Positions 9,560-34,015 of a stretch of 46,222 bases of DNA are shown here, one piece after another. Origin of the DNA: Candidatus Eiseniibacteriota bacterium (GTDB lineage: Bacteria > Arandabacterota > Arandabacteria > JAGLYR01). The DNA is taken from contig JAGLYR010000147.1 of NCBI GenBank assembly GCA_023132135.1, forward strand, positions 1 through 46,222. The letters run 5' to 3'. Below the pieces are notes generated by a model that searched no databases, was not told the origin of the DNA, and worked only from the letters and a program-made list of their open reading frames with translations. Both the position numbers and the translations under genes were made by a program. How positions within the stretch are numbered: position 1 is the first letter of the stretch; each line of letters starts with the position of its first letter.

Positions 9560-10198
9560 ATGTCCGCATCGCCTCGTTCAATCTTCGTCTCTGCTGCACT
9601 CATCGTCCTCATTCTGTGTCTTGGCAGCTGCGCCAAGGATGCCACCAAGCCCGAGCCTCAGCCGGAACCCCATGCACGCTCCACGCTGATGGGTACCATC
9701 GAGTTCTTTGCCCAGGCGCATGAGAACGAGGATATCGAAGCCTACACGGAATGCCTGCACCCAGAGTACGCCTTCTGGTTCTCAGAGGATGACCGAGATG
9801 ATCCTAACTGGGGCTGGCAAGACTGGATCGGCACAGTTGAAGATGTCCAGGTCACTGCGGCCATGTTTGAAGCGGAGAGCGTGAGGGACATCCGTATGAC
9901 CCTGACGAATCTGATAACGAACCCCGACTCACTGGGTTTCTACGTGGGAGGAGAGACCCGCAGCAAGCACAGTTTCACGTATTTCTGGGCGATCTTCGCT
10001 GCTGACATCCACGTTGTCGAGGAAACGCAGGATCAGGAGATCGATCGCTGGGTCGACGGCCGAGCGCACATCTTCTTGCGTCCGGATCCCAACGAGAGCA
10101 ATCTCTGGACCATCTGGAAGATCGAAGACAAGGGCAACGAGCACAAGGGCACCGAGGACACCTCTTGGTCTGGAATCAAGGCACTATTCCGGAAGTGA
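9560..10198 (+). CDS. Lipoprotein, NTF2-like fold suspected, first of a tandem pair
   Basis: The 212-residue lipoprotein has signal FVSAALIVLILCLGSC with a lipobox cysteine. The start at 9560 is set by GGAGG six bases upstream, and it gives exactly the length of its paralogue next door. The domain begins with a helix (IEFFAQAHENEDIEAYTECL), then HPEYAFWFSEDD, and ends with W.IWKIED; this order resembles SnoaL/NTF2-like proteins, a tentative call with no catalytic residues identified. It ends in TSWSGIKALFRK, a tail shared with the paralogue and, in similar form, with the beta-helix protein ending at 34015. The paralogue begins 11 bp downstream. Confidence 0.75.
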   Translation: MSASPRSIFVSAALIVLILCLGSCAKDATKPEPQPEPHARSTLMGTIEFFAQAHENEDIEAYTECLHPEYAFWFSEDDRDDPNWGWQDWIGTVEDVQVTAAMFEAESVRDIRMTLTNLITNPDSLGFYVGGETRSKHSFTYFWAIFAADIHVVEETQDQEIDRWVDGRAHIFLRPDPNESNLWTIWKIEDKGNEHKGTEDTSWSGIKALFRK

Positions 10199-10209
10199 GG
10201 TAGCCGAGA

Positions 10210-10848
10210 ATGATGGCCGGGAGAAAGCACCAACTCACAGTCCTCTGCTTGATGGTTGTGCTTGCTGGCTGTTCGAACGAGAGCCTGAAACTGCCCCCCA
10301 TAAAGTTACCTGTCATCGAGCCCGACCGCACGACGATCGCCGGCCTGTTCGACGTCTTCCAAGACGCGCACCAGGATCGTGAAATCGATTCCTTCGCAGA
10401 GTGTCTGCATCCCGAGTACATCTTCTGGTTCTCCGAAGATGATCGGGACAGTCCCTCATGGAACTGGAACGACTTCATCAACAAGATCGAAGACCGGGAT
10501 GTTACTGATGAGATGTTCGAAGCCGAGATAGTGACGGACATCCAGATAGACTTCACGAATCTCACTTTCGATCCCGACACGCTGGATCTCTGGATTCACG
10601 AAGATACGGGAGATCCAGAACCGTTCACGTACTACTGGGGCGTCTTTGCAGTAGACATGCATGTTGTCGAGCAGACCGAGGATGGCTTGATCGATCACTG
10701 GGTGGATGGCCGTGCCCGGATGTACGTTCGGCCGGATCCGGCGTTCGAGGGCCTCTGGACCATCTGGAAGATCGAGGATCTGGGCAACGAGCACAAAGCC
10801 ACCGATGACACCTCTTGGTCCGGAATCAAGGCACTATTCCGGAAGTGA
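10210..10848 (+). CDS. Lipoprotein, paralogue of the preceding gene
   Basis: The 212-residue product has a lipobox signal (LTVLCLMVVLAGC). It aligns along its whole length with the upstream protein: CLHPEY.FWFSEDDRD.P, MFEAE.V.DI, YYWGVFAVDMHVVEQT, WTIWKIED.GNEHK, and the same end TSWSGIKALFRK. The last 40 or so bases of the two genes are almost identical, whereas the N-terminal halves differ much more. The two are co-transcribed. Function unknown; a small envelope-anchored NTF2-like domain is the best guess. Confidence 0.75.
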   Translation: MMAGRKHQLTVLCLMVVLAGCSNESLKLPPIKLPVIEPDRTTIAGLFDVFQDAHQDREIDSFAECLHPEYIFWFSEDDRDSPSWNWNDFINKIEDRDVTDEMFEAEIVTDIQIDFTNLTFDPDTLDLWIHEDTGDPEPFTYYWGVFAVDMHVVEQTEDGLIDHWVDGRARMYVRPDPAFEGLWTIWKIEDLGNEHKATDDTSWSGIKALFRK

Positions 10849-10863
10849 GGTTCTGATTCGCCT

Positions 10864-12834
10864 TCACTCCTTACTCGCAGGCATCTCCCCACACACCTCA
10901 CTCAGGAACGTGCGCATCATCACGCGCACCGAATCCCAATCACACCAGATAAGCGGCCAGCCGAAGTACGCCGTGCTCCCGAGATCCGGGTCGCCGGAAC
11001 TGTCCACGATCAGGGCAGCGCAGTCGCCCTGCATGACCTGGGTGGAATCCAGGCCCGGCGGCACGAAGTAATCGAACATGTACAGGGCGCGCGCGTTGAC
11101 GTACGGGTTGATGTTGTCGGATTCGAGAACCTCTACCTCCCAGAGATACGTCGTGTCCGTCTCCGTGAAGTAGGGCCACGTGTCTCCAAAAGGAAGATCG
11201 GGGTAGACGCCGGGAATGGCCGAAATGGCTCCCCGAAAGGCATCGTGGCCGACGATGAACAGCTCCCGAATGCCGAAGGCGGTGTAGCTGATGGGAATGT
11301 TCTGGTCCGGCCGGCAGATTTCTTCGCGGTACAGGAAGGGGTAGTTGGGCCGGCCCCGGCAATCCGGGTCCAGGGACAGCCCCGGCACCTGGCCGATCAT
11401 GATCACGTTTCCCCCGACCTTGACGTAGGCATCGAGATAGCGGTTTCCCCTGTGGAACAGCTCCCGAAGACAGCTGCCCTCCTCGTCATAGAAATCGACG
11501 TACCAGATGATCGTGCGGTGCCGCCCGGCCAGAGAAACGGGAGGCGCGTCCAGCTCGTGCACCAGACAGTCCCACTCGGTGAAGGGGTATCCGGAGAGAA
11601 TGTGGTCGAGAAACCGGGCCTCGGTCTCGTCGGCATTATGACCCTCCCAGGAACCGAAGGAATGGGGAATGCCCGATGCCTGCGAGTCGTCCACCAAGAG
11701 CAGCGCGTACGTGTCACCCGTGTTCGGCCCCGCCTCTACCGTGAACTTGAACAAGCATACCGATACCTCACCCAGCTCGTCGATGGACTGCACGTACAGG
11801 ACGTGGTTGCCCAGCTCCGGCAGGAACGTCCCCCCGTTCTCGGGATACTGTGTGGAACCCGAGTACCATCGGGTCCAGACCGTGCTATCCTCCAGCGCGT
11901 ACCGGTATCCGGCAACCCGGGCGCCGTACTCCGATGCGTCGGCCTCCCACTGGAATGAGATCGGCACGCCGAGAAAAATCTCCGCCACGCGGCCCACGTA
12001 GTACGGCCCGCCATTCACCCTATTCTTCCGTGTTCCCAACACCCCGCCGTGGATCGTGATTTCTGCGGACCGGATCAGAACCGGGTCGAAGCAGCACCAG
12101 TTCTGGCCGGGCACCAGGATCTGTTCCATGGCACCGGCGTTGTCCTTACCGACGACGGCAAAGGAGTTGTGGCGGCCGGTCTCGGGGAGCATTCGCGCCA
12201 CTCCGGAGAACACGACATGCGTGCAATCAGCCCCGACCCGCGACCAGGTCGAGTCGACGGCGAGCATGATCCCCCCGGGGTTGATCTTGTAATAGAAGGA
12301 ATCCACCGTCCCTTCGTCGGGATCGAAACTGGTCCACTCGAAGAGAATGTTCGACCCGGTGGCGCTGCAGTAGTTCCGGTCACAGGGACCGCGCGTGATC
12401 GTCGTCTGGGGCGCCACAGTCTCTGCCGTGAAACTGCGGTGGGCAGGGGTGGGGTCGTGCATCCCCCCGTCGTCGACGGCCTTGATCCAGAAGGTGTGAA
12501 AACTCGCGTAGTGGGACCAGTCATCAGAAGAGGGAACGCAGCTGTCGGCCGTCACCGCAAACGTGCTCCCCGTCCCTGTGGTCCACTGCCACCGGGTCGT
12601 ATCCTCCCAAGCGAAGTAATACCCAACGACCTGGCCATCGGAGTCATTCCCAAACCAGCTTATGTCCACGCTGAAGGAGGTGATGCCGGCGTGTGGGGGC
12701 GCGCTGGAAAGCAACGTCTCGGGGGCCTGGTTCGGAATCTCGTTGCCGAACTCCGATTGCGTGCAGCCGCAGACGAGAAGAAGTACGGCGAGAATGCAAA
12801 CCCGACCATGCTGCTCCGGTGCCGTCTTCTGCAT
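10864..12834 (-). CDS. Large lipoprotein with fibronectin/Ig-like repeats
   Basis: A 656-residue protein beginning MQKTAPEQHG, with hydrophobic CILAVLLLVCGC giving the lipobox cysteine. An upstream GTG (12876) would add 14 residues before the signal and is less likely. Three or so Ig/Fn3-like modules follow: PETLLSSAPPHAGITS..VDISW, VAPQTTITRGPC, and FQWEADASEYGARVAGYRYALED. The last third (about residues 380-650) begins DTYALLLVDDSQASG and has an alpha/beta pattern that may be a Rossmann-like or glutaminase-like domain (IIWYVDFYDEEG, GGNVIMIGQVPG). This layout is common in uncharacterised FCB lipoproteins. It converges with the lipoprotein pair, 15 bp apart. No enzyme function is assigned. 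Confidence 0.7.
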   Translation of the reverse strand: MQKTAPEQHGRVCILAVLLLVCGCTQSEFGNEIPNQAPETLLSSAPPHAGITSFSVDISWFGNDSDGQVVGYYFAWEDTTRWQWTTGTGSTFAVTADSCVPSSDDWSHYASFHTFWIKAVDDGGMHDPTPAHRSFTAETVAPQTTITRGPCDRNYCSATGSNILFEWTSFDPDEGTVDSFYYKINPGGIMLAVDSTWSRVGADCTHVVFSGVARMLPETGRHNSFAVVGKDNAGAMEQILVPGQNWCCFDPVLIRSAEITIHGGVLGTRKNRVNGGPYYVGRVAEIFLGVPISFQWEADASEYGARVAGYRYALEDSTVWTRWYSGSTQYPENGGTFLPELGNHVLYVQSIDELGEVSVCLFKFTVEAGPNTGDTYALLLVDDSQASGIPHSFGSWEGHNADETEARFLDHILSGYPFTEWDCLVHELDAPPVSLAGRHRTIIWYVDFYDEEGSCLRELFHRGNRYLDAYVKVGGNVIMIGQVPGLSLDPDCRGRPNYPFLYREEICRPDQNIPISYTAFGIRELFIVGHDAFRGAISAIPGVYPDLPFGDTWPYFTETDTTYLWEVEVLESDNINPYVNARALYMFDYFVPPGLDSTQVMQGDCAALIVDSSGDPDLGSTAYFGWPLIWCDWDSVRVMMRTFLSEVCGEMPASKE

Positions 12835-12883
12835 GAGAGCCAAGGGTATCCTTCTCCGCCAGGGGCATTTCGGCACAGAGCCC

Positions 12884-13040
12884 CTATTAGCAGAATTCGT
12901 TACCCACCTTGGGATTACGACCTTTCGTTCTTGGCTTGAGTGATCGTCCCAGTGCTTTCTCCAGCCGGTCGCTCTCCTGTGTTTCTATCCACTCTCAAGC
13001 CTACTTGGATTCCTGAAACAGATCAAGAGCTTGTGGATCA
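12884..13040. repeat. 157-bp direct repeat, copy 2
   Basis: Partner of 9342-9498, in the same orientation and the same context: the start of a minus-strand exported-protein gene lies to its left and a plus-strand promoter (13084) to its right. It contains no intact gene. Confidence 0.85.
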
Positions 13041-13083
13041 ATCTGCACCGCTGTCCCGAGAAACCCTCATCAAAAGCAGCATC

Positions 13084-13112
13084 TTGACTTGTTGGACCGA
13101 ATCGACTATAAT
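13084..13112 (+). promoter_or_regulatory. Strong sigma70-type promoter for the metalloprotease
   Basis: TTGACT (13084-13089), 17-bp spacer, consensus TATAAT (13107-13112). It gives a leader of about 50 nt before ATG 13170. Confidence 0.75.
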
Positions 13113-13169
13113 TATATGTGACAGATGACGTTCCGATGACTGTGGTTCCCAGTGACCCGGGAGGATGTC

Positions 13170-14669
13170 ATGTCTGCGAACCCCTCCACCCACCGTCCCG
13201 GCCGAGCGCTCCATGCCGCGGCCTCGTTCCTGATCCCGGCGGCACTCCTGCTTCTCCTCACCCCAACCGACGCCGGGTCCCGCTTCTGGCCGAACAAGGA
13301 CTGGGAGAACCGCAAGCACAAGCTGAAGGTCTGCCTCAGCGATCCTCGCGGCCGGTGCCCCGCCGGCATGGCCGACTCCATCAAGACTGCCATCGCCATC
13401 TGGGACAGCACGGGACTCACGTGGCAGTTCACCTGGACCGACAGCTGCGATTCAGCCGACATCAAGATCCAATGCAAGGTCGTCACCGGCCTCGGCAAGT
13501 GCAGGCAGCATCCGAGTGGACTCTCGGGAGGAACCTACACGATCGATCGCGCCACCATCGACATCAACCCCTTGAAGGACTGGGGCTGGTGCGACGACAA
13601 GCAGGAGATCGTCGATGTGATCATGCACGAGCTGGGCCATTGCGCCATGCTGATGGACATCAATACGAACGATCAGACGCGCTTGATGCGGGCGGCGCGG
13701 AGAGAGCAGGGGCACAGCCGTGGACTCTCCAAGGCAGACAGCCTCGAGGCGGCATCGTCGGACACATCCGGGACCGTCGGAGTGAATTCCGCACCCCAGG
13801 GCGCCGCGAGACACAACGAGTACTCGGGAATCATCACGGCCGCACCAGGCACCCCGCCCCTCAACCTCAGCCAGGCGCAGGATATCGTTCTCACGGCCTT
13901 CCAGCCGGAGTATCTCGAGATCCTGGAATACTGGCCGATGGGCGAGGAGGAGATTTTCTGGCGCGCCCTTCCCATCAGCGACCAGGACGAGATGCAGGTC
14001 TACTTCGTGGCGATCGACTACGAGAGAGGCTGGGAAGTGCGCCAGGGGATCCTCTACGTCACAAACTTCCCGTGGGAGCCGGGATGGGCGCCGGTCGCCG
14101 TCGCCCCCGCGGATACGGTCGTTCCCAACGACACTTCGCAGGTGATTCTCGACTACCAGGCCTCTACGCACCCGAGCGGATTGGTGGAGGTCGTATCGTT
14201 CGCCTGGGTGGTGGACGATACCATCTGGGTCGAGGGCGGACCCGTGACCTCCATCATGCTACCCGAGGGCCCTCATCTCGTTGAACTCCTGGCCATGGAC
14301 GAGTACGGTCTCACCGACCGGGATACGATGTTCGTGCTCGTCGAGGAATCCGTGACCGGCGTCCTCGAGGAGAGGGACCTTCCAGCTCCTGCGAACCTGC
14401 GCCTCGATTTCCAGGTTCCCTTCCGCATGGGCGGACGCCTCGCGATCCGTTACGATCTCCCCCGCCTCTCGGACGTGGAGCTCACTGTGTACGACACGCG
14501 GGGCCGGCGAGTCGCCACCCTGGTGAAGGGTGTCCTTCCTCCCGGCCAGCGCGAAACCGCCTGGAACCTCCGGGATTCCCATGGGCATCCCGTGGCGCCA
14601 GGCATCTACTTCTGCTCCCTCAGGGTCGGCGAATCGCGGACTCTCCGGAAGATGGTGCTAGTGGACTAG
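13170..14669 (+). CDS. Secreted zinc metalloprotease (metzincin-like) with sorting domain
   Basis: The 499-residue product starts at the ATG preceded by GGAGGA, not at the codon 18 bases upstream. The signal peptide ends near DAGS. Residues about 35-170 form a small protease domain with HELGHCAMLMD (153-163): HExxH gives two zinc ligands and the base, and Asp163 takes the third-ligand place, as in snapalysin-type HExxHxxGxxD enzymes; the usual Gly is Met here. Matrixins have His instead of Asp. Residues about 315-390 look like an Ig/PKD-type domain. The last 85 or so residues are a diverged sorting domain (IRYDLPRLSDVELTVYDTRG, APGIYFCSL, RKMVLVD) that lacks the NPFNP box. Expected location: exported, outside the cell. 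Confidence 0.78.
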   Translation: MSANPSTHRPGRALHAAASFLIPAALLLLLTPTDAGSRFWPNKDWENRKHKLKVCLSDPRGRCPAGMADSIKTAIAIWDSTGLTWQFTWTDSCDSADIKIQCKVVTGLGKCRQHPSGLSGGTYTIDRATIDINPLKDWGWCDDKQEIVDVIMHELGHCAMLMDINTNDQTRLMRAARREQGHSRGLSKADSLEAASSDTSGTVGVNSAPQGAARHNEYSGIITAAPGTPPLNLSQAQDIVLTAFQPEYLEILEYWPMGEEEIFWRALPISDQDEMQVYFVAIDYERGWEVRQGILYVTNFPWEPGWAPVAVAPADTVVPNDTSQVILDYQASTHPSGLVEVVSFAWVVDDTIWVEGGPVTSIMLPEGPHLVELLAMDEYGLTDRDTMFVLVEESVTGVLEERDLPAPANLRLDFQVPFRMGGRLAIRYDLPRLSDVELTVYDTRGRRVATLVKGVLPPGQRETAWNLRDSHGHPVAPGIYFCSLRVGESRTLRKMVLVD

Positions 14670-14687
14670 CCTGGATAACCCAGGCTA
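14667..14687 (+). terminator. Hairpin overlapping the stop codon of the metalloprotease gene
   Basis: TAGCCTGG (14667-14674) and CCAGGCTA (14680-14687) are perfect complements around a 5-base loop. The stop codon TAG is the first three bases. No T-run follows. A related element, TAACCTGGATAACCCGGG, starts at the stop codon of the gene ending at 34015. Confidence 0.55.
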
Positions 14688-14726
14688 AACGGGACTATGC
14701 TCTGACCAGCTCAGGGCCGAGAAACC

Positions 14727-15068
14727 CTACTTCAATGAGTATGACTCCTCAATGAAATGAGCGACATTCTTCTCTTCGATGTCACTCGCCTTATGTATCT
14801 TGATGTGCCTCATTTGCTTGCCTTTACCTTCCAGGATTTCATCTGGATCAGATAGCTCCGAACCCCTGTCGAAAATGACCGACACATATTTCTCGTAAGG
14901 CATAATGCCTACAAAGGCCCTTTCGCCTTTGAACAGGCATAGAGCATTCCACTTAATATCTTCCCTTGCTCCTCGGGATAGGCCGGAAGACAGTTCTCTC
15001 AGGAGAGATACGATATTTCGCTTTTCATCATCCAAGCCAAGAATGAATTCGCTTATTTCAGCAGTCAT
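14727..15068 (-). CDS. DUF1801 (YdhG-like) domain protein
   Basis: A 113-residue cytoplasmic protein starting MTAEISEFILGL. The central ALCLFKGERAFVGIMPYEKY followed by VSVIFDRGSEL is typical of the DUF1801/YdhG fold, where a conserved Lys, aromatic and hydrophobic pattern marks a small alpha/beta domain of unknown function. The ATG at 15068 was chosen because the upstream extension is low in complexity and overlaps the gene before it. It is the last gene of the minus-strand run that begins at zwf; the gap to the previous gene is 32 bp. Confidence 0.7.
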   Translation of the reverse strand: MTAEISEFILGLDDEKRNIVSLLRELSSGLSRGAREDIKWNALCLFKGERAFVGIMPYEKYVSVIFDRGSELSDPDEILEGKGKQMRHIKIHKASDIEEKNVAHFIEESYSLK

Positions 15069-15100
15069 ACCTGTCCTTTCTTGAGGTCTAACGGCGGAGC

Positions 15101-15463
15101 TCACTGTGGAAATCCAGCTATCAGAAACGCCAGAATGGCCACGTTCACCGGAACCCCGATCTTGGAGTCCGGCCATCCCAGAATGCTCAGCACCAGTGAA
15201 AACCCGGCGGTGCAGAGCGCCAACCAGCGCCACCACGGAAACGGAGCGATTATCCCCACGCCCGCCGCGACAAAGGCAACTGCCGCAGCAAGCCACAGGA
15301 TCCCTACGAGCCGAATGCCGACATCTCCCACATCGACCGCGCCTGAAAGCAGAGTGGTCTTGTAGGGTGCATCCTTGAGAGTAGCGATTCTCCAGGGCAC
15401 AACGAAACCAACCAGATGTGCGAGTCCGTGAACGAACAGCACTATCGCGATGCCGATGCGCAC
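15101..15463 (-). CDS. Small four-helix membrane protein
   Basis: The 120-residue product begins on GTG (15463), placed by GGGAG six bases upstream; a TTG two codons earlier is the alternative. Four hydrophobic helices are visible: IGIAIVLFVHGLAHLVGFVV, LVGILWLAAAVAFVAAGVGI, WLALCTAGFSLVLSILGW and IGVPVNVAILAFLIAGF. The first helix carries the VHGLAHL motif seen in a family of small uncharacterised inner-membrane proteins. It lies 22 bp after the phzF-like gene. Confidence 0.65.
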   Translation of the reverse strand: MRIGIAIVLFVHGLAHLVGFVVPWRIATLKDAPYKTTLLSGAVDVGDVGIRLVGILWLAAAVAFVAAGVGIIAPFPWWRWLALCTAGFSLVLSILGWPDSKIGVPVNVAILAFLIAGFPQ

Positions 15464-15485
15464 TGCCAACTCCCTTTCTCCACCA

Positions 15486-16277
15486 TCAATCCGTTAGTTC
15501 CCCGCCGAGGACCGTGATGGCCCGCCCTCCCAGATGCACCCGGTCACCCGCAACGCGGACTCTCACTACGCCTCCACGTGCTGATGCCTGATAACCTACG
15601 AGCTCATCCTTCCCAAGCCGCTTGCTCCAGAAGGGACCAAGACAGCAATGGGCCGACCCTGTCACTGGGTCTTCATCGATACCGACTGCCGGCGCGAAAA
15701 ACCGGGATACGAAATCATGTTCCCCAGACCCGGCAACGCTAGTAACCATGGTACCACGAATCGGCAACGCCCTCAGCTTGCCGAAGTCAGGCTTCAGCTT
15801 CCGCACCGTTTCCTCGGACTCCACCTCCACGAGATAGTCGTATTGGGTTCTGCCGACGTACTTGGGCACTACGCCCAACGCCTCACTCAGGCCGGCAGGG
15901 GCGCTCGCCGGTTCATCAGGAGTAGCGGGAAAACCGAGTTCGATTTCATCTCCCCTGCGCTCCGCTGTCAGCAACCCGCTTCGAGTATGAAACCGCGCTT
16001 GCTCCCGAGGAGCCAACAGACCGATTTCCCAGAGAACATGCGCGCTCGCCAGCGTGGCGTGACCGCACAATTCAACCTCGACGGCGGGGGTAAACCAGCG
16101 GAGACCGAAACCGTCCTCTTGCCTGTGCAAGAAGGCCGTTTCGGACAAGTTCATCTCTCGCGCCACATTCTGCATCCAGTCCGCATCCCGCGGTGCGGGC
16201 AGAATACAGACCCCAGCCGGGTTGCCTGTGAATAGCCGATCCGCGAACGCATCCACGTGAAAGATCTGCACTCCCAT
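15486..16277 (-). CDS. PhzF-family epimerase/isomerase
   Basis: A 263-residue cytoplasmic protein of the PhzF family, which shares the diaminopimelate-epimerase fold. The N-terminus FHVDAFADRLFTGNPAGVC is diagnostic, with the conserved Glu in MNLSETAFL (the general base position in PhzF), CGHATLASAH, and DEDPVTGSAHCCLGPFW in the second half. Members isomerise small hydroxy or dihydro acids; the substrate cannot be read from sequence, and no phenazine genes are nearby. A ribosome binding site (AGGAGA) lies seven bases before the ATG. It follows gnd by 15 bp and is likely co-transcribed. Confidence 0.9.
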   Translation of the reverse strand: MGVQIFHVDAFADRLFTGNPAGVCILPAPRDADWMQNVAREMNLSETAFLHRQEDGFGLRWFTPAVEVELCGHATLASAHVLWEIGLLAPREQARFHTRSGLLTAERRGDEIELGFPATPDEPASAPAGLSEALGVVPKYVGRTQYDYLVEVESEETVRKLKPDFGKLRALPIRGTMVTSVAGSGEHDFVSRFFAPAVGIDEDPVTGSAHCCLGPFWSKRLGKDELVGYQASARGGVVRVRVAGDRVHLGGRAITVLGGELTD

Positions 16278-16292
16278 GACGCTTCTCCTGGT

Positions 16293-22396: not shown

Positions 22397-24244
22397 ATGC
22401 GAGCCCTTTTCATCACGCTGGCAATTCTGCTCGTTCCCGCCTCTGCGTCGACCCAGGAAGCGGTCCAGACCGACTGGTCGGGCGGCGGGGGCGCGGCCGG
22501 GCCCGTCGCCGACTGGGGCCACCGGTTCGATTCCGCGTCGGGCACATCCTCGCTGTCCGTGCCCGGGCAGCTGGCGCTCTCGGGGACGGCTCTCGCCTTT
22601 CCGTCCGTACACCTTCTGAGTGACGCCTACCAGGGCACGATCGGCGTCGCCGTGGGAGACGTCGACGGGGACGGCGACATGGACGTCGTCGGCACGGCGC
22701 AGACGACGCAACTCGTCACGCTGTTCGTCAACGAGGGTGGGGACCCCGTCACCTGGTCCGAACAGACCATTGCCACCCCGGCCGGCGCTGCCGGTGTGGA
22801 TCTCGCCGACATCGACGGCGACGGGGATCTCGACGTGGTCATCATGTGCGTGGCGCCCCGTAACAAGATCCTCCTCCGGCTCAACGAGGGCGGCGACCCC
22901 ATCATCTGGAGCAATCACGTGATCCAGAATCCGTGGTACGACGCCTGGGAGATCTCCACCGGCGACGTCAATGGCGACGGCCACATGGACGTGATGTGCA
23001 CCTGCTGGTCCATGGGCGATGTCTCCTGGTGGCGCAACGACGGTAACAATCCGATTACCTGGACAGAGAACCTCGTGGACGGGAACATCTTCGGCGCCCA
23101 CTCGGTCCGCGGCGCCGATTTCGACGAGGACGGTGACATGGATCTGGCGGTGGCGGCCGGCATGGCCGACAAGATCGCCGTTTACTGGAACGATGGCCAA
23201 GACCCTATCGGCTGGACGATGCAGGTCGTCCGGGAGAACTTCGAGGGGGCCCGCTCGGTCTGGATCGGCGACATCGATCGGGACGGGGACCCCGACATCG
23301 CCGGCATCTGCTGGGAGAGTGACCTGGCCTGGTGGCGGAACGACGGCGGCGATTCCGTCTCGTGGACCGAGCAGACAATCTGCACCGACTGCCACGGGGG
23401 ACATGCCTGCTGCATCGCGGACATCAACGGCGACGGCCGGCCGGACATCCTGGGCGCCTGCTCCAACAGCAACAAAATCGCCTGGTGGGAGAACGGCGGC
23501 GGCAATCCCATCACGTGGACCGAGCGCATCCTCGCCGGCCATTGGGAGGGCGCCATCACCGTCCGCGCCGCCGACCTGGACGGCGACGGCGACGTGGATC
23601 CGGTCGGCGCGTCCTGGACCATGGGCGAGTTCTCCTGGTGGGAGGCAACGGCATTCGCGTCCCCGGGAGACCTTACAAGCTCGATCCTCGACACGGGGGA
23701 GAAATCCCGTCTCGGGGCGATCGACTGGACGTCGATCGAACCCGCCGGCACGTCGGTCGCCTTCCAGGTTCGCAGTTCAGACGATCCCGCTGATCCCGGG
23801 GCCTGGTCGGCCGACATCACAAACCCCGGCGCTCTGCCTGAGCCCCTCGACCGTTACATCCAGTACCGGGTCTTCCTCGATACCACCGACCCCGACGTCT
23901 CCCCCATCCTCCACGACGTGACCTTCGGACCCGGGATGACCGCCGTAGAGATCGTCACTTCGGACCTGCCGGCCGCCGGTCTCTCCGCACACCCGAACCC
24001 CTTCAATCCTGCGGTCACCATCGCCTTCGGTCTCAGAACGGAATCGTCCGTCCGCCTGGACGTCCTCAACGTGGAAGGACGCCGCGTGCGAAGCCTGGCC
24101 GGGACCGTCATGGCCGCCGGCGACCACCGGATCGACTGGGACGGCCGGAACGACCACGGACAGGCCCTGCCGTCGGGCGTCTACTGGGTCCGCCTGGAGA
24201 CCCCAGACATCCAGGACACGCAGAAGCTCGTCCTCCTCCGATGA
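22397..24244 (+). CDS. Secreted FG-GAP/VCBS propeller protein with sorting domain
   Basis: The 615-residue product starts at an ATG seven bases after AAGGAG, with signal peptide LFITLAILLVPASASTQ. Residues about 70-420 are a beta-propeller of repeated blades with the calcium-loop pattern D.DGDGD.D and a recurring WW.NDG..P..WTE element. About 425-520 is a beta-sandwich (LDTGEKSRLGAIDWTSIEP), as in domains that follow such propellers. The end, about 530-615, is a sorting domain: HPNPFNPAVTIAFGL, then DWDGRNDHGQALPSGVYWVR and KLVLLR. Likely a surface or extracellular binding protein; ligand unknown. It converges with the regulator gene with only 7 bp between stops. Confidence 0.82.
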   Translation: MRALFITLAILLVPASASTQEAVQTDWSGGGGAAGPVADWGHRFDSASGTSSLSVPGQLALSGTALAFPSVHLLSDAYQGTIGVAVGDVDGDGDMDVVGTAQTTQLVTLFVNEGGDPVTWSEQTIATPAGAAGVDLADIDGDGDLDVVIMCVAPRNKILLRLNEGGDPIIWSNHVIQNPWYDAWEISTGDVNGDGHMDVMCTCWSMGDVSWWRNDGNNPITWTENLVDGNIFGAHSVRGADFDEDGDMDLAVAAGMADKIAVYWNDGQDPIGWTMQVVRENFEGARSVWIGDIDRDGDPDIAGICWESDLAWWRNDGGDSVSWTEQTICTDCHGGHACCIADINGDGRPDILGACSNSNKIAWWENGGGNPITWTERILAGHWEGAITVRAADLDGDGDVDPVGASWTMGEFSWWEATAFASPGDLTSSILDTGEKSRLGAIDWTSIEPAGTSVAFQVRSSDDPADPGAWSADITNPGALPEPLDRYIQYRVFLDTTDPDVSPILHDVTFGPGMTAVEIVTSDLPAAGLSAHPNPFNPAVTIAFGLRTESSVRLDVLNVEGRRVRSLAGTVMAAGDHRIDWDGRNDHGQALPSGVYWVRLETPDIQDTQKLVLLR

Positions 24245-24251
24245 ACCGTCT

Positions 24252-26527: not shown

Positions 26528-26570
26528 GGCCCGCATTTCTCACCAGCCTCGTCGCGAGGCGTTGTAGATA
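26528..26570 (-). repeat. REP-like element, copy L
   Basis: On the minus strand it reads TACAACGCC, a hairpin GCCTCG-loop-CGAGGC (26546-26560), then the tail GGTGAGAAATGCGGGC (26529-26544). It lies upstream of the regulator promoter, so it is not part of that leader. The same layout recurs inverted at 27493-27532. Confidence 0.65.
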
Positions 26571-26615
26571 CCTGTAATGACGATAAGTCCGGAATGACGC
26601 CGGCGGGAACGAAAC

Positions 26616-27380
26616 ATGTTGACCTCACTCCAGGAGCTGGATCGATGCCAAACGCCGTTGGGCGAGCTGACCCTGTGGCGGCGGCGTTCGGCGTCCCAGG
26701 GTGGGACGGAGTTCTACGAGGTCCGGCTGGACGGAGAATTTCTCATGTCCAGCCTGGTCAACCACTCCGAGATTGCCCTGGCCAAGCTGGCTCTGGCGGA
26801 ACTGCCCGATGGAGAGTGGGATATCCTGGTCGGGGGACTGGGATTGGGCTACACGGCCAAAGCGGCCCTGGATTTTCCGAATGTCCGATCCGTGACCGTG
26901 GTGGAGTACCTGGAACCCGTGATCAACTGGCACCGGTGGCAGATCGTACCTCTGGGTGTGGAACTCACAACGGACGGGCGCTGCCGCCTGGTCCAGGCGG
27001 ACTTCTTCGATATGGTGGGCCCGTCAGATGGTACCGTCGAAGCCAATCCTGCGTCTCAAACCTATCACGGGATCCTCATCGATATTGACCATTCGCCCTG
27101 CCATCTGATCCGTGCCTCCCACGCGCCTTTCTACGAAACGGAAGGTCTCCGGCGCCTGGCGGCCCACCTCGCGCCGGGCGGAGTGTTCGCCCTCTGGTCC
27201 GCCGAACCGCCGGAAGAGGAGTTTCTGGCCCGCCTGCATACCGTCTTCGCCGACGCCAAAGCCTGTGAAGTCGAGTTCTTCAATCCCCTGGTAGATGAGA
27301 AAGACACAAACTGCATCTACATTGCGGCCGGGCCGAGACGGCACCGCGGGTCGAAAAGCTCAAGTTCGCGTTTTCCTTAA
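26616..27380 (+). CDS. Spermidine-synthase-like SAM-binding protein
   Basis: A 254-residue cytoplasmic protein of the spermidine synthase/class I methyltransferase superfamily. Seen: FYEVRLDGEFLMSS and ALAELPDGEWDILVGGLGLG, the glycine-rich cofactor loop (GGLGLGYTAKAAL), acidic end of strand 2 (VTVVEYLEPV), then VQADFFD and GILIDIDHSPCHLI. The C-terminal LAPGGVFALWSAEPPEEEFL is usual for this group. The acidic polyamine-binding motif of true spermidine synthases (GGGDG, D.tDP) is altered, so a methyltransferase or another SAM-dependent role is as likely. It is a single gene between inverted REP-like copies. Confidence 0.75.
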   Translation: MLTSLQELDRCQTPLGELTLWRRRSASQGGTEFYEVRLDGEFLMSSLVNHSEIALAKLALAELPDGEWDILVGGLGLGYTAKAALDFPNVRSVTVVEYLEPVINWHRWQIVPLGVELTTDGRCRLVQADFFDMVGPSDGTVEANPASQTYHGILIDIDHSPCHLIRASHAPFYETEGLRRLAAHLAPGGVFALWSAEPPEEEFLARLHTVFADAKACEVEFFNPLVDEKDTNCIYIAAGPRRHRGSKSSSSRFP

Positions 27381-27437
27381 CCGACATGGATATTGAGGGT
27401 TAGATCCCTTGCCAGCGAGTGTGCAGAAAGATTCTGC

Positions 27438-27466
27438 TTGACCGCCGGCTCTTTTTGTACTACAAT
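27438..27466 (+). promoter_or_regulatory. Promoter for the sulfate transport operon
   Basis: TTGACC, 17-bp spacer, TACAAT. The start near 27473 leaves a leader of about 75 nt that contains a REP-like hairpin. I see no SAM-riboswitch or T-box signature. Confidence 0.65.
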
Positions 27467-27492
27467 TGGAGTGTGATTGGAGTGCAGCTAGA

Positions 27493-27532
27493 TACAACGC
27501 CGTACCAGATGGCTGGTGAAAAACGCGGGCCA
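27493..27532 (+). repeat. REP-like element, copy R
   Basis: TACAACGCC, hairpin GCCGT-loop-ATGGC (27499-27513), and tail GGTGAAAAACGCGGGC (27515-27530). Compared with copy L, the flanks are conserved while the stem sequence differs but still pairs. It ends 1-2 bases before the AAGGAGGA of sbp. Confidence 0.65.
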
Positions 27533-27547
27533 TAAGGAGGACGGATC

Positions 27548-28612
27548 GTGGATCGACTTGGATGGCTTCGCTCGAGGAGGCTGTGGGTGGCCCTGGTGGT
27601 TTTGGCCATGGCGGGGACCTCCGGCTGCGGGAGCAAGGGACAGAAGGGAGAATCCGGGACGGAGGAAGACGTCCTGGTGCTGGCCGCCTACACGGTTCCC
27701 AAGGAGGCCTACGAGAAGGAGATCATCCCGGCCTTCCAGCGGCTCTGGAAGGCGAAGACGGGTCGGGACCTCACCGTAGAGCAGTCCTACGAGGCCTCCG
27801 GCGCCCAGGCGCGGGCCGTACTGGGCGGTTTCCAGGCCGATGTTGTCGCGCTCTCCCTCGAGGGGGACGTGGACAAGCTGGTGGATGCCGGCCTCATCAC
27901 CCACAACTGGAAGAAGCGGATCTGGAACGGGTTTATCACGCGCTCGGTTGTGGCCATCGGTGTCCGCCCCGGGAATCCGAAGAACATCCGCGGCTGGGAA
28001 GACCTCGCGAGACCCGACGTGGAGGTCCTCTACCCCAACCCCAAGACGTCGGGCGGGGCGATGTGGTGCGTGAATGCAATCTACGGCGCCGGCCTCAAGA
28101 TGTCGGAAGAGAAAACAGGCAATGCGGATCCCGGACAGGCCCGTGAGCTACTCAAGCGGATCCAGAGACGCGTGAAGGTGATGGACAAGTCCGGGAGATT
28201 GTCGGTGAGCACGTTCGAGCGCGGAATCGGGGACGCCATCCTCACCTACGAGAACGAAATCCTGCTCCGCCAGCTCCAGGGCCGGGACTTCCCCGTGGTC
28301 GTGCCCCCGGCGACAATCCTGATCGAGAACCCGATCGCAGTCGTCGACAAGAACGCCGAGAAGCATGGAACACGTGATCTGGCGGATGCCTTCGTCGAAT
28401 TCTGCCACACCGACGAGGCCCAGCGGGTCTACGCCCGGTACGGATTCCGCGCCGCGAACCCCGAGATCCTCGAGGAATTCGCCGACCAGTACCCGGTTCC
28501 CCCAATGCTCTTCGACGTCGAGTATCTGGGCGGCTGGGCCCGCGTCCGGGAGACGCTCTACGGTCCGGAGGGAACCTGGACCCTCGTGACTCGGGAACTG
28601 GCGAAGGAGTAG
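27548..28612 (+). CDS. sbp: Sulfate ABC transporter substrate-binding lipoprotein
   Basis: Captures sulfate (or thiosulfate) outside the inner membrane and hands it to CysTW. The 354-residue product begins with GTG, seven bases after a near-perfect AAGGAGGA. Lipoprotein signal LWVALVVLAMAGTSGC. Family marks: VLVLAAYTVPKEAYEK, EQSYEASGAQARAVLGGFQA, DVVALSLEGDVDKLVDAGLI, YPNPKTSGGAMWCVNAIYGA, ILTYENEILL. It is lipid-anchored rather than free, unlike E. coli Sbp. First gene of sbp-cysT-cysW-cysA. Confidence 0.93.
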   Translation: MDRLGWLRSRRLWVALVVLAMAGTSGCGSKGQKGESGTEEDVLVLAAYTVPKEAYEKEIIPAFQRLWKAKTGRDLTVEQSYEASGAQARAVLGGFQADVVALSLEGDVDKLVDAGLITHNWKKRIWNGFITRSVVAIGVRPGNPKNIRGWEDLARPDVEVLYPNPKTSGGAMWCVNAIYGAGLKMSEEKTGNADPGQARELLKRIQRRVKVMDKSGRLSVSTFERGIGDAILTYENEILLRQLQGRDFPVVVPPATILIENPIAVVDKNAEKHGTRDLADAFVEFCHTDEAQRVYARYGFRAANPEILEEFADQYPVPPMLFDVEYLGGWARVRETLYGPEGTWTLVTRELAKE

Positions 28613-28616
28613 CCCG

Positions 28617-29468
28617 GTGGCCGTCGAGACGATCCAGGGCAAAAAGACCGGGCGGAGCAGCAGAGGATGGAACGCGGACCCGATGCTCCGCGGAATCTCC
28701 CTGTCCTACCTCGGCCTGTTCGTGGCGCTCCCGATTGCAGCCCTCACCGTCCGGGCGTGCGGCGGGGGGATTGCGCGGCTCTGGGTGGAGTTGACGAGGC
28801 CGGAAGCGCTCTTCTCTCTCCAGCTGACCCTGGCGATGGCGGGCGCCATGATCGTGGTCAACGTCCTGATGGGAACACTCACGGCATGGGTGCTTGTCCG
28901 CTACCGCTTTCCCGGTCAGTCCGTCATCAACGCCCTGATCGATCTGCCGTTTGCGATCCCGACTGTGGTCACCGGCCTCATGCTCGTCATGCTCTATGGG
29001 CCACAAAGCGCGGTCGGCAGCTTTCTGTCCTCCCAGGGGATCGAGATCATCTATGCCAAGCCCGGCATCGTTCTGGCTCTCCTCTTCGTCACGTCTCCCT
29101 TCGTCGTGCGCGCCGTCCAGCCGGTGTTGATGGAGATGGACCAGGACATGGAGGAGGCCGCGGCCACCCTCGGAGCCAGCCAGTGGACCGTTTTCCGGAA
29201 GGTGATCATACCGTCCATCCTGCCGGCCGTCCTGACCGGCGCCGCCCTGTCCTTCAGCCGGGCGCTTGGCGAGTTCGGTTCGGTGGTCATGGTTGCGGGG
29301 AACATCCCCATGAGGACCCAGGTCGCCCCCGTGTTCATCTACGGCGAGGTGGAGAGCGACAACCCTCTGGGCGCGCTCGGGGTCTCCCTCGTTCTCCTGG
29401 CCGGCTCTCTCACCATCCTCGTCCTCCTGAACCTGCTGCAGCGAATGGGGAGGAAACGCGATGACTGA
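28617..29468 (+). CDS. cysT: Sulfate ABC transporter permease CysT (CysU)
   Basis: One of the two membrane subunits of the sulfate importer. The 283-residue protein starts on GTG, with AAGGAG overlapping the sbp stop region. Six helices can be traced (ISLSYLGLFVALPIAALTV first). The coupling EAA loop is EEAAATLGASQWTVFRKVI, followed by SFSRALGEFGSVVMVAGNIP, which is diagnostic for CysT/CysW. The end overlaps cysW by 8 nt. Confidence 0.93.
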   Translation: MAVETIQGKKTGRSSRGWNADPMLRGISLSYLGLFVALPIAALTVRACGGGIARLWVELTRPEALFSLQLTLAMAGAMIVVNVLMGTLTAWVLVRYRFPGQSVINALIDLPFAIPTVVTGLMLVMLYGPQSAVGSFLSSQGIEIIYAKPGIVLALLFVTSPFVVRAVQPVLMEMDQDMEEAAATLGASQWTVFRKVIIPSILPAVLTGAALSFSRALGEFGSVVMVAGNIPMRTQVAPVFIYGEVESDNPLGALGVSLVLLAGSLTILVLLNLLQRMGRKRDD

Positions 29469-30348
29469 TCCCGGACTCGCTGTCCAGTTGCCCCCGGATG
29501 GCCTCCCGGTACACCGTCCCGCCGGCCGCGCGGGTCTCGGGGCCGCCCCCTGGGGCCGCTGGGGCCTCATTGCCCTGGTGCTGGTCTGGTTTACGGTGCT
29601 CACACTCTTCCCAATCGGGGCCATCATCAAGGGAGCTTGGCAGGAAGGGCTCACCGCATCTCTGGCGGCCCTGCGGACCCCGGCCGCCACCCGCGCCTTC
29701 ACTCTGACGGTGGGAATCACCGTGACGGCGGTCGTGATCAACACGTTGTTCGGGACCGTCCTCGCTCTGGTTCTGGCGCGGCAGCGTTTCTGGGGCAAGC
29801 TGCTCGTCGAGGGAATCGTGGACCTGCCCTTCTCGGTGTCACCCGTGGTGGCCGGGGTCATGTTCATTGTTCTGTTCGGACCGGAGGGCTGGCTCGGCAG
29901 ATGGTTCGAGGCCGGCGGGATCCGCATCGTCTTCGCCGTGCCCGGGATGGTCCTGGCGACGATCTTCGTCACGCTGCCCTTCGTGACGCGGCAGGTGGTG
30001 CCGGTTCTCCGGGAGTGCGGGCTGGAACAGGAGGAAGCCGCCCGGACCCTCGGCGCCAACCCATGGCAGACTTTCTGGCGGGTGACTCTGCCGTCGGTAC
30101 GCTGGGGGCTGGCGTACGGGATCACGCTGACCACCGCGCGGGCCCTCGGGGAGTTCGGGGCCGTACTTGTGGTGAGCGGCAGCATCATCGGGCGAACGCA
30201 GACCGCCACCCTCCACATCCACCAGGAGTTCACCAACTTCCACTACGCGGGCGCGTTCTCCGCCTCGCTGGTTCTGGCCGTCGTATCGTTCTGCCTGCTG
30301 CTGGCCATGGAGTTCTTGAAGACGAGAGTCGAAAGCAGAACCCAGTAG
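29461..30348 (+). CDS. cysW: Sulfate ABC transporter permease CysW
   Basis: Second membrane subunit, 295 residues, starting at an ATG inside the end of cysT with GGGGAGGA upstream. A Pro/Gly/Arg-rich N-terminal stretch precedes the first helix (LIALVLVWFTVLTLFPIGAI). EAA loop: EEAARTLGANPWQTFWRVTL; then TTARALGEFGAVLVVSGSII and a CysW-type TLHIHQEFTNFHYAGAFSAS. Forms a heterodimer with CysT (family knowledge). Confidence 0.93.
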   Translation: MTDPGLAVQLPPDGLPVHRPAGRAGLGAAPWGRWGLIALVLVWFTVLTLFPIGAIIKGAWQEGLTASLAALRTPAATRAFTLTVGITVTAVVINTLFGTVLALVLARQRFWGKLLVEGIVDLPFSVSPVVAGVMFIVLFGPEGWLGRWFEAGGIRIVFAVPGMVLATIFVTLPFVTRQVVPVLRECGLEQEEAARTLGANPWQTFWRVTLPSVRWGLAYGITLTTARALGEFGAVLVVSGSIIGRTQTATLHIHQEFTNFHYAGAFSASLVLAVVSFCLLLAMEFLKTRVESRTQ

Positions 30349-30390
30349 CCGGCCGTCCCCAGGACGCGCCGGCAACCCGGAGTGAACACG

Positions 30391-31506
30391 ATGGGGATTC
30401 TAGTCAATGGAGTGACGAAGCGGTTCCCGCCCGGACGCGGGGAAGCCCTGGGCCACCTGGCAGTGGACGACGCCACCTTCTCCGTGCCGCGCGGCCACCT
30501 GGTGGCCCTGCTTGGGCCCAGCGGGTCGGGTAAGAGCACGATCCTCCGGATCATCGCCGGCCTCGAGGAACCCGACGCCGGCGAAGTCTACCTCGACAGC
30601 GAGCTCGTCACCGCTCACCCGGTCCACCGGCGCGGCGTGGGGTTCGTCTTCCAGCACTACGCCCTGTTCAAACACGCCAGCGTGGAGAAGAACATCGCGT
30701 TCGGTCTCGAAGTCCGCAAATGGCCGCGCCCCGAAATCCAGAGACGGGTGGCCGAGCTTCTGGACCTCATCCAGCTCCAGGGGTACGAGGACCGATATCC
30801 GTCACAGCTCTCGGGCGGGCAGCGGCAACGCGTCGCCCTCGCCCGGGCGCTCGCGCCCCGCCCGCGCGTGCTCCTCCTGGACGAACCATTCGGCGCCCTC
30901 GACGCCAAGGTCCGCCGCAACCTGGCCACCCAGATTCGCCAGCTGCACAGCGAGTTCCAGACGACCACCGTCTTCGTCACCCACGACCAGGAGGAAGCCA
31001 TCGAGATCTCCGACGAGATCGTGGTCATCAACCGCGGGCGCGTCGACCAGATAGGGTCCGCCGAGGAGATCTACGACCACCCCAAGAACAAGTTCGTCGC
31101 CAGCTTCATCGGGAACGTGAATGTGATCGAGGGGTACCTGGTGAACGGCACCCTCTCCATCGGCCCTCAGAGGATCCCCGTGCCGAGCCGCCGGACTGAA
31201 GTTCCGGATGGCGAGGTCGTTCTGCTCGCCCGTCCGGAGGACGTGGAGCTGGTCGAGGAGACCATGCCCGGCGCCATGAAGGGCATCGTCAAGGAGGTCC
31301 GCTACCGGGGCGACCGCTACGAGCAGGAAATCGAGATCGCCGGCCAGACGATACGCGTGGTCGAGATCAAGAGCCGCGGTCAAGCGGTCGTTCGCCATGC
31401 GGGCCAGCGCGTGGGCGTCCGCTTCACCCGCCACCGGCTGTTCGAGGTCGAGAAGGATCACGAGGCGATCCGGGCGCAGCTGCAGAGCCTCGGGTACATC
31501 GAGTGA
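30391..31506 (+). CDS. cysA: Sulfate ABC transporter ATP-binding protein CysA
   Basis: Energises sulfate import. The 371-residue form starts at ATG 30391, with CGGAG eight bases upstream; the GTG three codons earlier is less likely. Walker [10 protein letters not shown] (42-50), Q-loop FVFQHYALF, signature [15 protein letters not shown], Walker [13 protein letters not shown] and the H-loop FVTHDQEEA are all intact. The C-terminal 120 residues are a TOBE-like regulatory domain ([14 protein letters not shown]) typical of CysA. Last gene of the operon; the next gene has its own promoter. Confidence 0.94.
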
Positions 31507-31548
31507 GTCTCCCGGGCGTCCTACTTCGCCCTCTCCCTGAACTTCGCC

Positions 31549-31577
31549 TTGAACCCACCCGCCACATTCCGTATAAT
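31549..31577 (+). promoter_or_regulatory. Promoter for the Cys-rich secreted protein
   Basis: TTGAAC, 17-bp spacer, consensus TATAAT (31572-31577). Start near 31584 sets ATG 31629 as the first usable start. Confidence 0.75.
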
Positions 31578-31628
31578 CACAGATACAGGTCAGCCGGCAG
31601 ATCCTTGTCTCAAACTCGGGAGAATCAA

Positions 31629-32702
31629 ATGTCTATCCGTATCATCGCAATCACCTTGCTGTTCCTGGTTTTCAGCGTTGCTGCCACCGACGCCGGCGCT
31701 GAGGCCATCATTGCCGATCATTCGGGAGTCTCGCAGTTCGAGGAAATCCCCGACGCAGTGATCACGTACATTCAGTCGAACTACGAGTTCTTCTACGGTC
31801 ACACTTCGCACGGTAGCCAGATAATGACGGGCCTCGACGTGCTGTACGACGAGGATCCCTTCTACGCGGAGCCTCCCTTCACTGAATACGGGGACGACCT
31901 GGGACACAACGGCGATGTCTCATGGGTTCCCCCCACCACGAACTACCTCGATTCTCACCCTGAATGCAACGTCGTGATGTGGTCGTGGTGCGGCGGCTGC
32001 TCGGACAACACGGAAGCGGGAATCAACACCTACCTGGATGCGATGAACCAGCTGGAACTGGATTACCCGTTGGTCACCTTCATATACATGACCGGGCACC
32101 TGGACGGGTCCGGACTGGCCGGGAACCTCTACGCCCGCAACAACCAGATCCGGCAGTACTGCACCGCGAATTCAAAGGTCCTTTTTGACTTTGCAGACAT
32201 AGAGAGCTGGGACCCGGACGGGAACTACTACCCCGACGAGTCCGACAACTGCTCCTGGTGCTCAGTGTGGTGCGCTTCTCATCCGTGTCCTTCCTGTGGG
32301 TGCGCCCATTCCCATTGCTTCAACTGCTACCAAAAGGGCAAAGGTTTCTGGTGGATGATGGCGAGGGTGTCCGGTTGGGATCCGACGACCGCGGTCCAGG
32401 CGGCCTCCGCGCCGGCTTCGGGCAGAGCCTCCTTCCTCGAGCAGAACTACCCGAACCCGTTCAACCCATCCACGACAATCGGCTTCCGGTTGCCGGCTGC
32501 CCTGCACGTCCACCTGGAGATCTTTGACGTCTCGGGCCATAGCGTGGCCGTCCTGCTGGACCGCCGGTTTGGGGCCGGTGACCATGTCATCGAGTGGGAC
32601 GGCAAGGACTCCACCGGCCGGCCCGTGGCAACCGGAACGTACTTCTGCCAATTGCGCGCCGGTGATCTCACAGACACGAAGAAGATGACGCTTCTCAAGT
32701 GA
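31629..32702 (+). CDS. Secreted Cys-rich protein with sorting domain
   Basis: The 357-residue product starts at the ATG preceded by GGGAGA, with signal peptide IITLLFLVFSVAATDAGA-like. The core (about 30-205) begins with FFYGHTSHGSQIMTGLDVL and contains WSWCGGCSDN and FIYMTGHLDGSG; the order of Gly/His/Ser, Asn and HLD motifs recalls SGNH hydrolases, but this is a weak match and no activity is claimed. Residues about 210-240 form a dense Cys cluster (CSWCSVWCASHPCPSCGC, then HCFNC), which could bind metal or form disulfides. The end is a full sorting domain: QNYPNPFNPSTTIGFRLP, TGTYFCQL, KKMTLLK. Confidence 0.72.
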   Translation: MSIRIIAITLLFLVFSVAATDAGAEAIIADHSGVSQFEEIPDAVITYIQSNYEFFYGHTSHGSQIMTGLDVLYDEDPFYAEPPFTEYGDDLGHNGDVSWVPPTTNYLDSHPECNVVMWSWCGGCSDNTEAGINTYLDAMNQLELDYPLVTFIYMTGHLDGSGLAGNLYARNNQIRQYCTANSKVLFDFADIESWDPDGNYYPDESDNCSWCSVWCASHPCPSCGCAHSHCFNCYQKGKGFWWMMARVSGWDPTTAVQAASAPASGRASFLEQNYPNPFNPSTTIGFRLPAALHVHLEIFDVSGHSVAVLLDRRFGAGDHVIEWDGKDSTGRPVATGTYFCQLRAGDLTDTKKMTLLK

Positions 32703-32803
32703 TGTAGAGCAAGAAGAACCCGCAGGACACGCGCAGCGTACGGTGTCGCTCGCGATTGTCCAGTCTCGTCCAGGCACCTGTCCCCCTTGCCGGGAGGTGA
32801 ACC

Positions 32804-34015
32804 ATGAGGCTCGCTATTGCTGTTTTCCTGCTCGCTTCGTTCCTCACCATATCCGCCCCCGCCCTGGCCGCGAGCTGGAACGTCCCATCTCAATGTCCGA
32901 CCATCCAGGCCGGAATCGATTCAGCAAGCGCCGGAGACACCGTGCTGGTTGCCTGCGGCACGTACCACGAATATGACATCGTCATGAAACCGGGCGTCTT
33001 GTTGAGGAGTGAAACGGGCGAGGCCGACTGCGCAACCATCCATGCCCAGCAGCAGGGCAGGATCTTCTACTGCAAGTGCCTGGACGTAACGCCCGGCATC
33101 GAGGGGTTCACAATCACGGGTGGCTATGCCACGGGAGAATACCCCGACTGTTGCGGGGCAGGCATGTACTGCGAGGCTTCTTCTCCCTTGATTGTCAATT
33201 GCACCTTTTCCGGCAACTCCGCCCAAGGCATGGGCGGCGGAATTTACTGCCGCCAGTACGCCTCCCCAACACTCATTGGCTGCACCTTCTCCGGTAACTC
33301 GGCGGGCGGCGCGGGTGGTATGTACTGCGAGAACGGCTCCTCCCCCGCGCTCACCAATTGCACCTTTGCCGACAACCTTGCCGACTGCGGCGGGGCCCTG
33401 AGCTGCATATGGGGAGGTCTTCCTGCATTCACCAACTGCACCTTCTCCGGCAACTCCGCAGCGGACGGCGGCGCTGTCGAATGCTGGGGCTCTTCTCCTG
33501 TATTCACCGGCTGCGTCTTCTCGGGCAACTCCGCCTACGGCTGGGGCGGCGGAGCAATGGGACTCCACAAGTTCTCCAATCCCACAATTACCGGCTGTAC
33601 CTTCTGCGGGAATTCAGGTCCTGAAGGCGGCGTGATACTCTGCGACATCTACTGCGATCCTGCTCTGGAGAACACAATCATCGCCTTCAGCACCGAAGGG
33701 GAAGCCATCTGCTGCCTCGGCGGCAGCAGTCCCACCCTCAGCTGCTGCGATGTCTACGGCAACGAGGGCGGCAACTGGACAGGGTGCATCGCCGGTCAGC
33801 ACGGTGTTGACGGGAACTTCTCGGAGTGCCCGCTGTTCTGCGATTCGCAGAACGGGGACTTCCATCTTCAGAACTGCTCTCCCTGCGCTGTGGGCAATCA
33901 CCCCGACGGCTGCGACTGCGGGCTCATCGGCGCGTATGACGTTGGCTGTGAGTGCGGTCTGCCAACGGCAGTGGAGCAGGCAAGCTGGTCGTCGCTCAAG
34001 ACTCTCTACCGTTAA
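32804..34015 (+). CDS. Secreted right-handed beta-helix repeat protein
   Basis: The 403-residue product has signal peptide AIAVFLLASFLTISAPALA and a strong GGGAGGTG ribosome binding site. After QCPTIQAGIDSASAGDTVLV (the usual cap of these proteins) come about seven coils with C.TFSGNSA..GGG.YC, the pattern of polymorphic-outer-membrane-protein and pectate-lyase-like beta-helices; it is unusually rich in cysteine. There is no enzymatic signature. The large sorting domain is absent; instead the protein ends in QASWSSLKTLYR, close to the tail of the lipoprotein pair at 9560-10848. The stop codon begins the element TAACCTGGATAACCCGGG. Confidence 0.8.
   Translation: MRLAIAVFLLASFLTISAPALAASWNVPSQCPTIQAGIDSASAGDTVLVACGTYHEYDIVMKPGVLLRSETGEADCATIHAQQQGRIFYCKCLDVTPGIEGFTITGGYATGEYPDCCGAGMYCEASSPLIVNCTFSGNSAQGMGGGIYCRQYASPTLIGCTFSGNSAGGAGGMYCENGSSPALTNCTFADNLADCGGALSCIWGGLPAFTNCTFSGNSAADGGAVECWGSSPVFTGCVFSGNSAYGWGGGAMGLHKFSNPTITGCTFCGNSGPEGGVILCDIYCDPALENTIIAFSTEGEAICCLGGSSPTLSCCDVYGNEGGNWTGCIAGQHGVDGNFSECPLFCDSQNGDFHLQNCSPCAVGNHPDGCDCGLIGAYDVGCECGLPTAVEQASWSSLKTLYR

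Follow-up and report, generated by a model that had tools for sequence, protein, structure and literature searches.

The window analyzed here is a 46,222-nucleotide contig stretch (JAGLYR010000147.1, positions 1 to 46,222 of the forward strand) of a Candidatus Eiseniibacteriota bacterium (assembly GCA_023132135.1), and three exported proteins encoded on its forward strand end in a short, shared C-terminal motif that we refer to as the tail. Two of these carriers are lipoproteins. Lipoprotein 1 (9560..10198, with an alternative start codon possible at 9542) has the lipobox LGSC and a SnoaL-like body whose match to SnoaL_2 is weak (E 0.6), and lipoprotein 2 (10210..10848) has the lipobox LAGC. 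Both end in the tail TSWSGIKALFRK, found at 10160..10195 in the first (W codon at 10166) and at 10810..10845 in the second (W codon at 10816). The third carrier, at 32804..34015, is a right-handed beta-helix protein (PF13229, E 5.3e-24) whose full tail, PTAVEQASWSSLKTLYR, lies at 33962..34012 and consists of the junction P-T-A-V-E and the core ASWSSLKTLYR, with the W codon at 33986. An earlier note on this DNA had reported these three tails from the letters alone, and they are present as described; all three examples are real, but they amount to only two independent cases because the lipoproteins are tandem duplicates with 56% identity. A strict search pattern, the degenerate DNA pattern for W-x-x-[hydrophobic]-K-x-L-[FY]-R in which a stop codon was not required, matched the window three times, compared to no match in 100 dinucleotide shuffles.

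The same pattern was scanned across the 3.4-Mb genome to which the window belongs, using the reversed pattern as the control; counts per genome come from such scans and from sampled loci, as opposed to a full proteome count. The strict pattern produced 16 matches and the control none. All 16 fall at protein C-termini, no more than six residues from the stop codon: 13 end exactly in R-stop, the two window lipoproteins end in RK-stop, and one runs on for six further residues. A looser pattern that included the stop gave 40 matches against a single control match. A lack of over-representation at C-termini had been set beforehand as a refuting outcome; in both the genome and the phylum scans the motif was instead vastly over-represented there, and a chance origin of the motif was rejected given control counts near zero. 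As a separate observation on these genes, 33 of the 40 use a TAG stop codon, compared to 11 of 30 larger ORFs (open reading frames) in the window.

From 235 distinct tails, the consensus P-[ST]-[PA]-V-E-x-x-[ST]-W-G-x-I-K-[AS]-L-[YF]-R-stop was obtained. The W, K and R of this set were fixed by the search, while the serine or threonine at position −1 (96%) and the glutamate at position −4 (59%) were free to vary; the motif as first noted was correct in its core but, in view of these two positions, stated too short. Arginine stands next to the stop in 231 of the 235. The nine-residue core can be written W-[GS]-x-I-K-x-L-[YF]-R. W, K, R and Y carry the most information, followed by G, I, L and the S/T at −1. 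Codon usage within the tails is diverse, with six arginine codons, both lysine codons and four glycine codons in use and many synonymous codons at the isoleucine position as well, indicating that selection acts on the peptide; a DNA-level repeat was rejected for this reason. A short amphipathic helix, N-capped and with one face formed by W, I, L and Y, would fit the spacing. In an AlphaFold model of a 187-residue carrier family, the body is a cohesin-like beta-sandwich with pLDDT of about 80–92 (best Foldseek E of 1e-5 to cohesins), and the tail forms two helical turns at pLDDT below 50, suggesting that it is an exposed, flexible end in this family. The model of lipoprotein 2 is of low confidence (mean pLDDT 53) and, beyond the hint of a short helix over WSGIKA, too poor to interpret. 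The tail region spans 9–17 residues and is predicted as disordered or as a short helix, not as an Ig-like beta-sandwich, with one of the two models being of low confidence.

Proteins that carry the tail are exported proteins of many kinds. Using a simple, home-made rule for signal peptides that was applied alike to all complete ORFs of the fetched loci, a signal peptide or lipoprotein signal was assigned to 123 of 133 carriers (92%) and to 152 of 496 other ORFs nearby (31%; p = 1.5e-40), which is the enrichment that the earlier note had asked to be checked. For the window's genome the figure was 26 of 27 carriers, five of which are lipoproteins. The depletion of FlgD-like domains that the note had also asked about was found in full, with no FlgD-type domain and no NPFN motif (0/133) among the 133 sampled carriers. 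This agrees with the window, where profile searches found no Por_Secre_tail or FlgD_ig match at the C-terminus of the three carriers and their neighbors do have such domains, as the note had said. A neighboring exported protein (31629..32702, forward strand) has a FlgD-type, or type IX secretion system (T9SS) type A, sorting domain (PF13860, 3.8e-7; TIGR04183, 28.2 bits compared to a cut-off of 23), and NPFNP-type C-terminal domains (CTDs) are present in the proteins encoded at 1688..5149 and 22397..24244 on the forward strand and at 36005..38800 on the reverse strand.

When both ends were removed, the bodies of 124 carriers fell into 57 clusters, so that homology of the whole domain, the remaining refuting condition, fails to explain the tail and was rejected. 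Bodies include beta-helix, NHL propeller, MAM, CBM20, PKD, Calx-beta and lamin-tail domains, and in one carrier a choice-of-anchor J domain (54.9 bits, cut-off 30) directly precedes the tail; the NCBI name of that domain reflects its occurrence with various anchoring signals. Paralogues do occur among the carriers, with 13 beta-helix and 10 cohesin-like proteins. In the sample, tail carriers have a median length of 263 amino acids, compared to 678 for FlgD-type carriers. Two arrangements of carrier genes were also seen. At L113:96-3402, four tandem genes encode exported proteins of ~185 residues, each with a tail and a predicted cohesin-like fold, and at L134:1869-3044 and L149:1366-2550, tandem duplicates of a tail-bearing SnoaL-like lipoprotein are fused, with a relic of the first copy's tail now internal (GTSWGVIKYCF and GWGGIKYCF), as if the intergenic stop had been lost. 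Taken together, the motif is defined at the protein level, sits exactly at the C-terminus and occurs on exported proteins with many different folds.

Within the window's phylum, the strict pattern was present in all eight genomes scanned, with 80 matches compared to four for the control. In a sample of 60 genomes, the sole strong outsider was G032, with 44 matches, and in the phylum of G032, hereafter the second phylum, the stop-anchored motif was found in 79 of 80 genomes at up to 54 copies per genome. Matches in a scan of named genomes came mostly from Candidatus Eisenbacteria and Krumholzibacteriota, with others from an Aegiribacteria, an Effluviviaceae and records labelled Latescibacterota, Gemmatimonadota and UBP1. 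A survey of 318 diverse genomes added further multi-copy genomes (G152, G155, G185, G279, G292, G295 and G322, with 12 to 61 copies) as well as three with two or three tails each (G188, G190 and G325). Two loci of another genome, G046, in which the SprA match is marginal only, encode exported proteins ending LTTTWG-x-[VL]-K-x-x-[Y]R (L272 and L273); with its longer T-T-T lead, this ending looks like a variant or convergent tail. In the distant, SprA-positive genome G326, a lipoprotein weakly similar to those of the window (L316:1504-2118, E 0.039) ends SWGYVKWIFR, a likeness which suggests that this type of carrier is old.

The survey also placed the tail in T9SS-bearing genomes. SprA_N, a domain of the T9SS translocon, was detected in 87 of the 318 genomes, and these include all 20 genomes with at least two genuine tails and all 13 with the tail-ended FN3 protein described below (33/33; Fisher p of 1e-21, a value that ignores shared ancestry). 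The 231 SprA-negative genomes gave single tail matches only, about as often as the reversed control did. For the window's phylum, SprA_N was detected in 8/8 genomes, and for the second phylum in 56 of 66 draft genomes. C25 peptidases were found in all 38 genomes checked, although C25 alone is no proof of PorU, and FlgD-type domains are abundant in genomes with or without tails. The window's genome itself has 27 matches to C25 (gingipain/PorU-type) peptidases in its 3.4 Mb (on C141, C143 and C80, for example). In this survey, tails are confined to T9SS-bearing genomes, a nesting that narrows the kind of signal the tail could be.

The tail and the T9SS CTD also alternate on related proteins. One tail protein (L071) matches two FlgD-CTD proteins (L128, 35%; L047, 30%), another (L211) matches a FlgD-CTD homologue at 44% (L162), and the beta-helix carrier of the window matches one at 32% (L097). 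The tail matches in the distant genomes G008, G014, G052 and G058 proved to be one small orthologous protein, composed of a signal peptide, one FN3-like domain and the ending TWGSIKAMFR. In the first four genomes its ten tail residues are identical and the bodies 32–40% identical; over 13 genomes from 10 families, 12 of the proteins end in [TS]WGSIKA[MLI]FR and the thirteenth in TWGSIKALLK. In other proteins, this same FN3 domain is followed directly by a T9SS-type CTD (in G288, G141, G283, G352, G226, G362 and G326, for example), and G014 contains both versions, one tail-ended and one CTD-ended. On homologous bodies, the tail and the T9SS CTD are interchangeable. In G008, a DUF4835 (PorD-type) gene (E 4.5e-25) immediately precedes the FN3-tail gene, and in G379 a DUF4835 relative is nearby. 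No dedicated partner gene was found in the 13 FN3-tail neighborhoods, which share little (a DUF4835/PorD relative in two, an M23 peptidase in four).

Given over-representation at C-termini, presence on exported proteins and the failure of whole-domain homology, all three refuting tests failed and the earlier idea of a second, compact C-terminal signal is supported, with its kind (secretion, anchoring or processing) being something we infer. Our preferred reading, to which we assign a probability of roughly 0.55, is that the tail serves as a compact sorting signal at the C-terminus, acting beside, and probably through, the T9SS, and for it we infer the following route, receptor and processing. 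The signal peptide would take the carrier across the inner membrane by the Sec pathway, and the tail would be read afterwards. A flexible linker, P-[ST]-[PA]-V-E, would present the short, N-capped amphipathic helix [ST]-W-G-x-I-K-x-L-Y-R-COOH to a type IX receptor in the periplasm or outer membrane, the first candidates being a PorV-type shuttle or the SprA complex, which would then deliver the carrier to the outer membrane or through it. In this way the tail may stand in for the bulky FlgD-type CTD, chiefly on small proteins. Cleavage by the T9SS at the junction P-[ST]-[PA]-V-E, which lies at a fixed distance, was considered and kept as a lead only; a comparable T-G-V junction was seen in only 12 of 30 FlgD-type proteins compared to 5 of 30 upstream, and cleavage just before a proline would be unusual. 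A more specific proposal, which we hold tentatively and at slightly under even odds, is that type IX signals include a second, minimal class, WGxIKxLYR. This helical peptide of nine residues would have its own receptor and replace the ~80-residue CTD; it would be ancestral in a single conserved FN3 protein of many T9SS lineages and would have spread to dozens of cargo per genome in lineages of the Krumholzibacteriota and Eisenbacteria type.

Several observations weigh against a route through the T9SS. Many SprA-positive genomes lack tails, among them the Bacteroidota-like G288; the clearest case is G065, where SprA, C25 peptidases and at least 150 FlgD matches occur and no tail does, indicating that the tail is not a core requirement of the T9SS. 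The co-occurrence of tail and SprA is not independent of phylogeny, the genomes being largely from FCB-type lineages. A dedicated receptor was not found, the sequence of the tail does not resemble CTD motif B, D or E, and G085 has 15 tails and no SprA match, though in this 90%-complete draft the missing SprA is probably a gap. Lipoproteins are unusual T9SS cargo, and several carriers, two of them in the window, are lipoproteins. The lipoprotein carriers, the tail-less T9SS genomes and the unlikeness to CTDs would all be in keeping with the tail being a T9SS-independent sorting or anchoring signal with a separate receptor or processing enzyme, its overlap with the T9SS reflecting shared ancestry only, and most FN3-tail genes do not adjoin T9SS genes. 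We nevertheless regard this alternative as rather unlikely, given the near-control rate of single matches in the 231 SprA-negative genomes and the swapping of tails with T9SS CTDs on homologous bodies.

The tail might instead be a retention or binding peptide, a cationic amphipathic helix that binds the surface, the envelope or a partner, as in a dockerin-like assembly, and involves no translocation. The putative N-capped helical pattern, one face of which is made up of W, I, L and Y, the flexible and exposed end in the model and the cohesin-like fold of a common carrier body family are consistent with this, but the strict register of R against the stop in 231 of 235 tails and the alternation with secretion domains better suit a sorting signal, leaving such a peptide improbable. 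An exactly C-terminal, short and exposed sequence could also mark proteins for quality control or turnover by a periplasmic tail-specific protease or chaperone; we judge this very improbable, as the tail is kept on dozens of cargo per genome and swapped with secretion domains, and typical degrons are non-polar and not fixed at W, K and R. That there is no signal at all, the motif being due to whole-domain homology, a DNA repeat or chance, would be in keeping with the paralogues among the carriers and is already contradicted by the 57 body clusters, the synonymous codon diversity and the near-zero controls, giving it practically no probability. If the preferred reading of a sorting signal linked to the T9SS is true, the tail would define a portion of the surface or secreted proteome that present annotation overlooks in several uncultured phyla, because most carriers match no family. 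No signal yet connected with a type IX system would then be shorter, and at this size direct peptide-binding tests come within reach. The FN3-tail protein, whose ten-residue end is nearly constant over deep divergence, would be a ready probe for the receptor.

Among known systems, the tail resembles PEP-CTERM, GlyGly-CTERM, MYXO-CTERM and LPXTG in being a short C-terminal signal on modular exported proteins, including those with choice-of-anchor domains. In those signals the motif precedes a transmembrane segment and a basic cluster, whereas the tail has no transmembrane segment and stops at R, directly after the motif in 231 of 235 cases. No Pfam or NCBIfam model covered the tail among the matches listed, and no mention of it was found in open-access text, with subscription journals and preprints lying outside the search. 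It is apparently a C-terminal signal undescribed so far.

The closest likeness is to the T9SS type A CTD (TIGR04183, PF18962, FlgD_ig PF13860), which likewise sits at the C-terminus of signal-peptide proteins whose folds are many and unrelated, occurs in dozens per genome, shares genomes with the tail and takes the same position after homologous bodies; both have a basic residue at the very end and sometimes a short T/S-x-V-acidic stretch before them. In contrast, the tail is 9–17 residues long as opposed to about 70–100, is predicted to be a flexible helix and not an Ig-like beta-sandwich, and has neither motifs B, D and E nor a profile match, with no hit to Por_Secre_tail or FlgD_ig among the matches listed for 124 carriers. 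In the wider sense, the carriers do have the features of T9SS cargo, a Sec signal peptide and a C-terminal signal in a genome with the translocon and a C25 peptidase. The short CTDs of Prevotella intermedia, which are cut at PT/GI, show by their authors' data and models that a reduced T9SS signal can work, but at 40–55 residues they are three-stranded in models, retain motifs B, D and E and are mostly detected by CTD profiles (PMC11969387). The T9SS targeting signal of HBP35 lies in the last 22 residues (PMC11285876), making a signal as short as the tail plausible.

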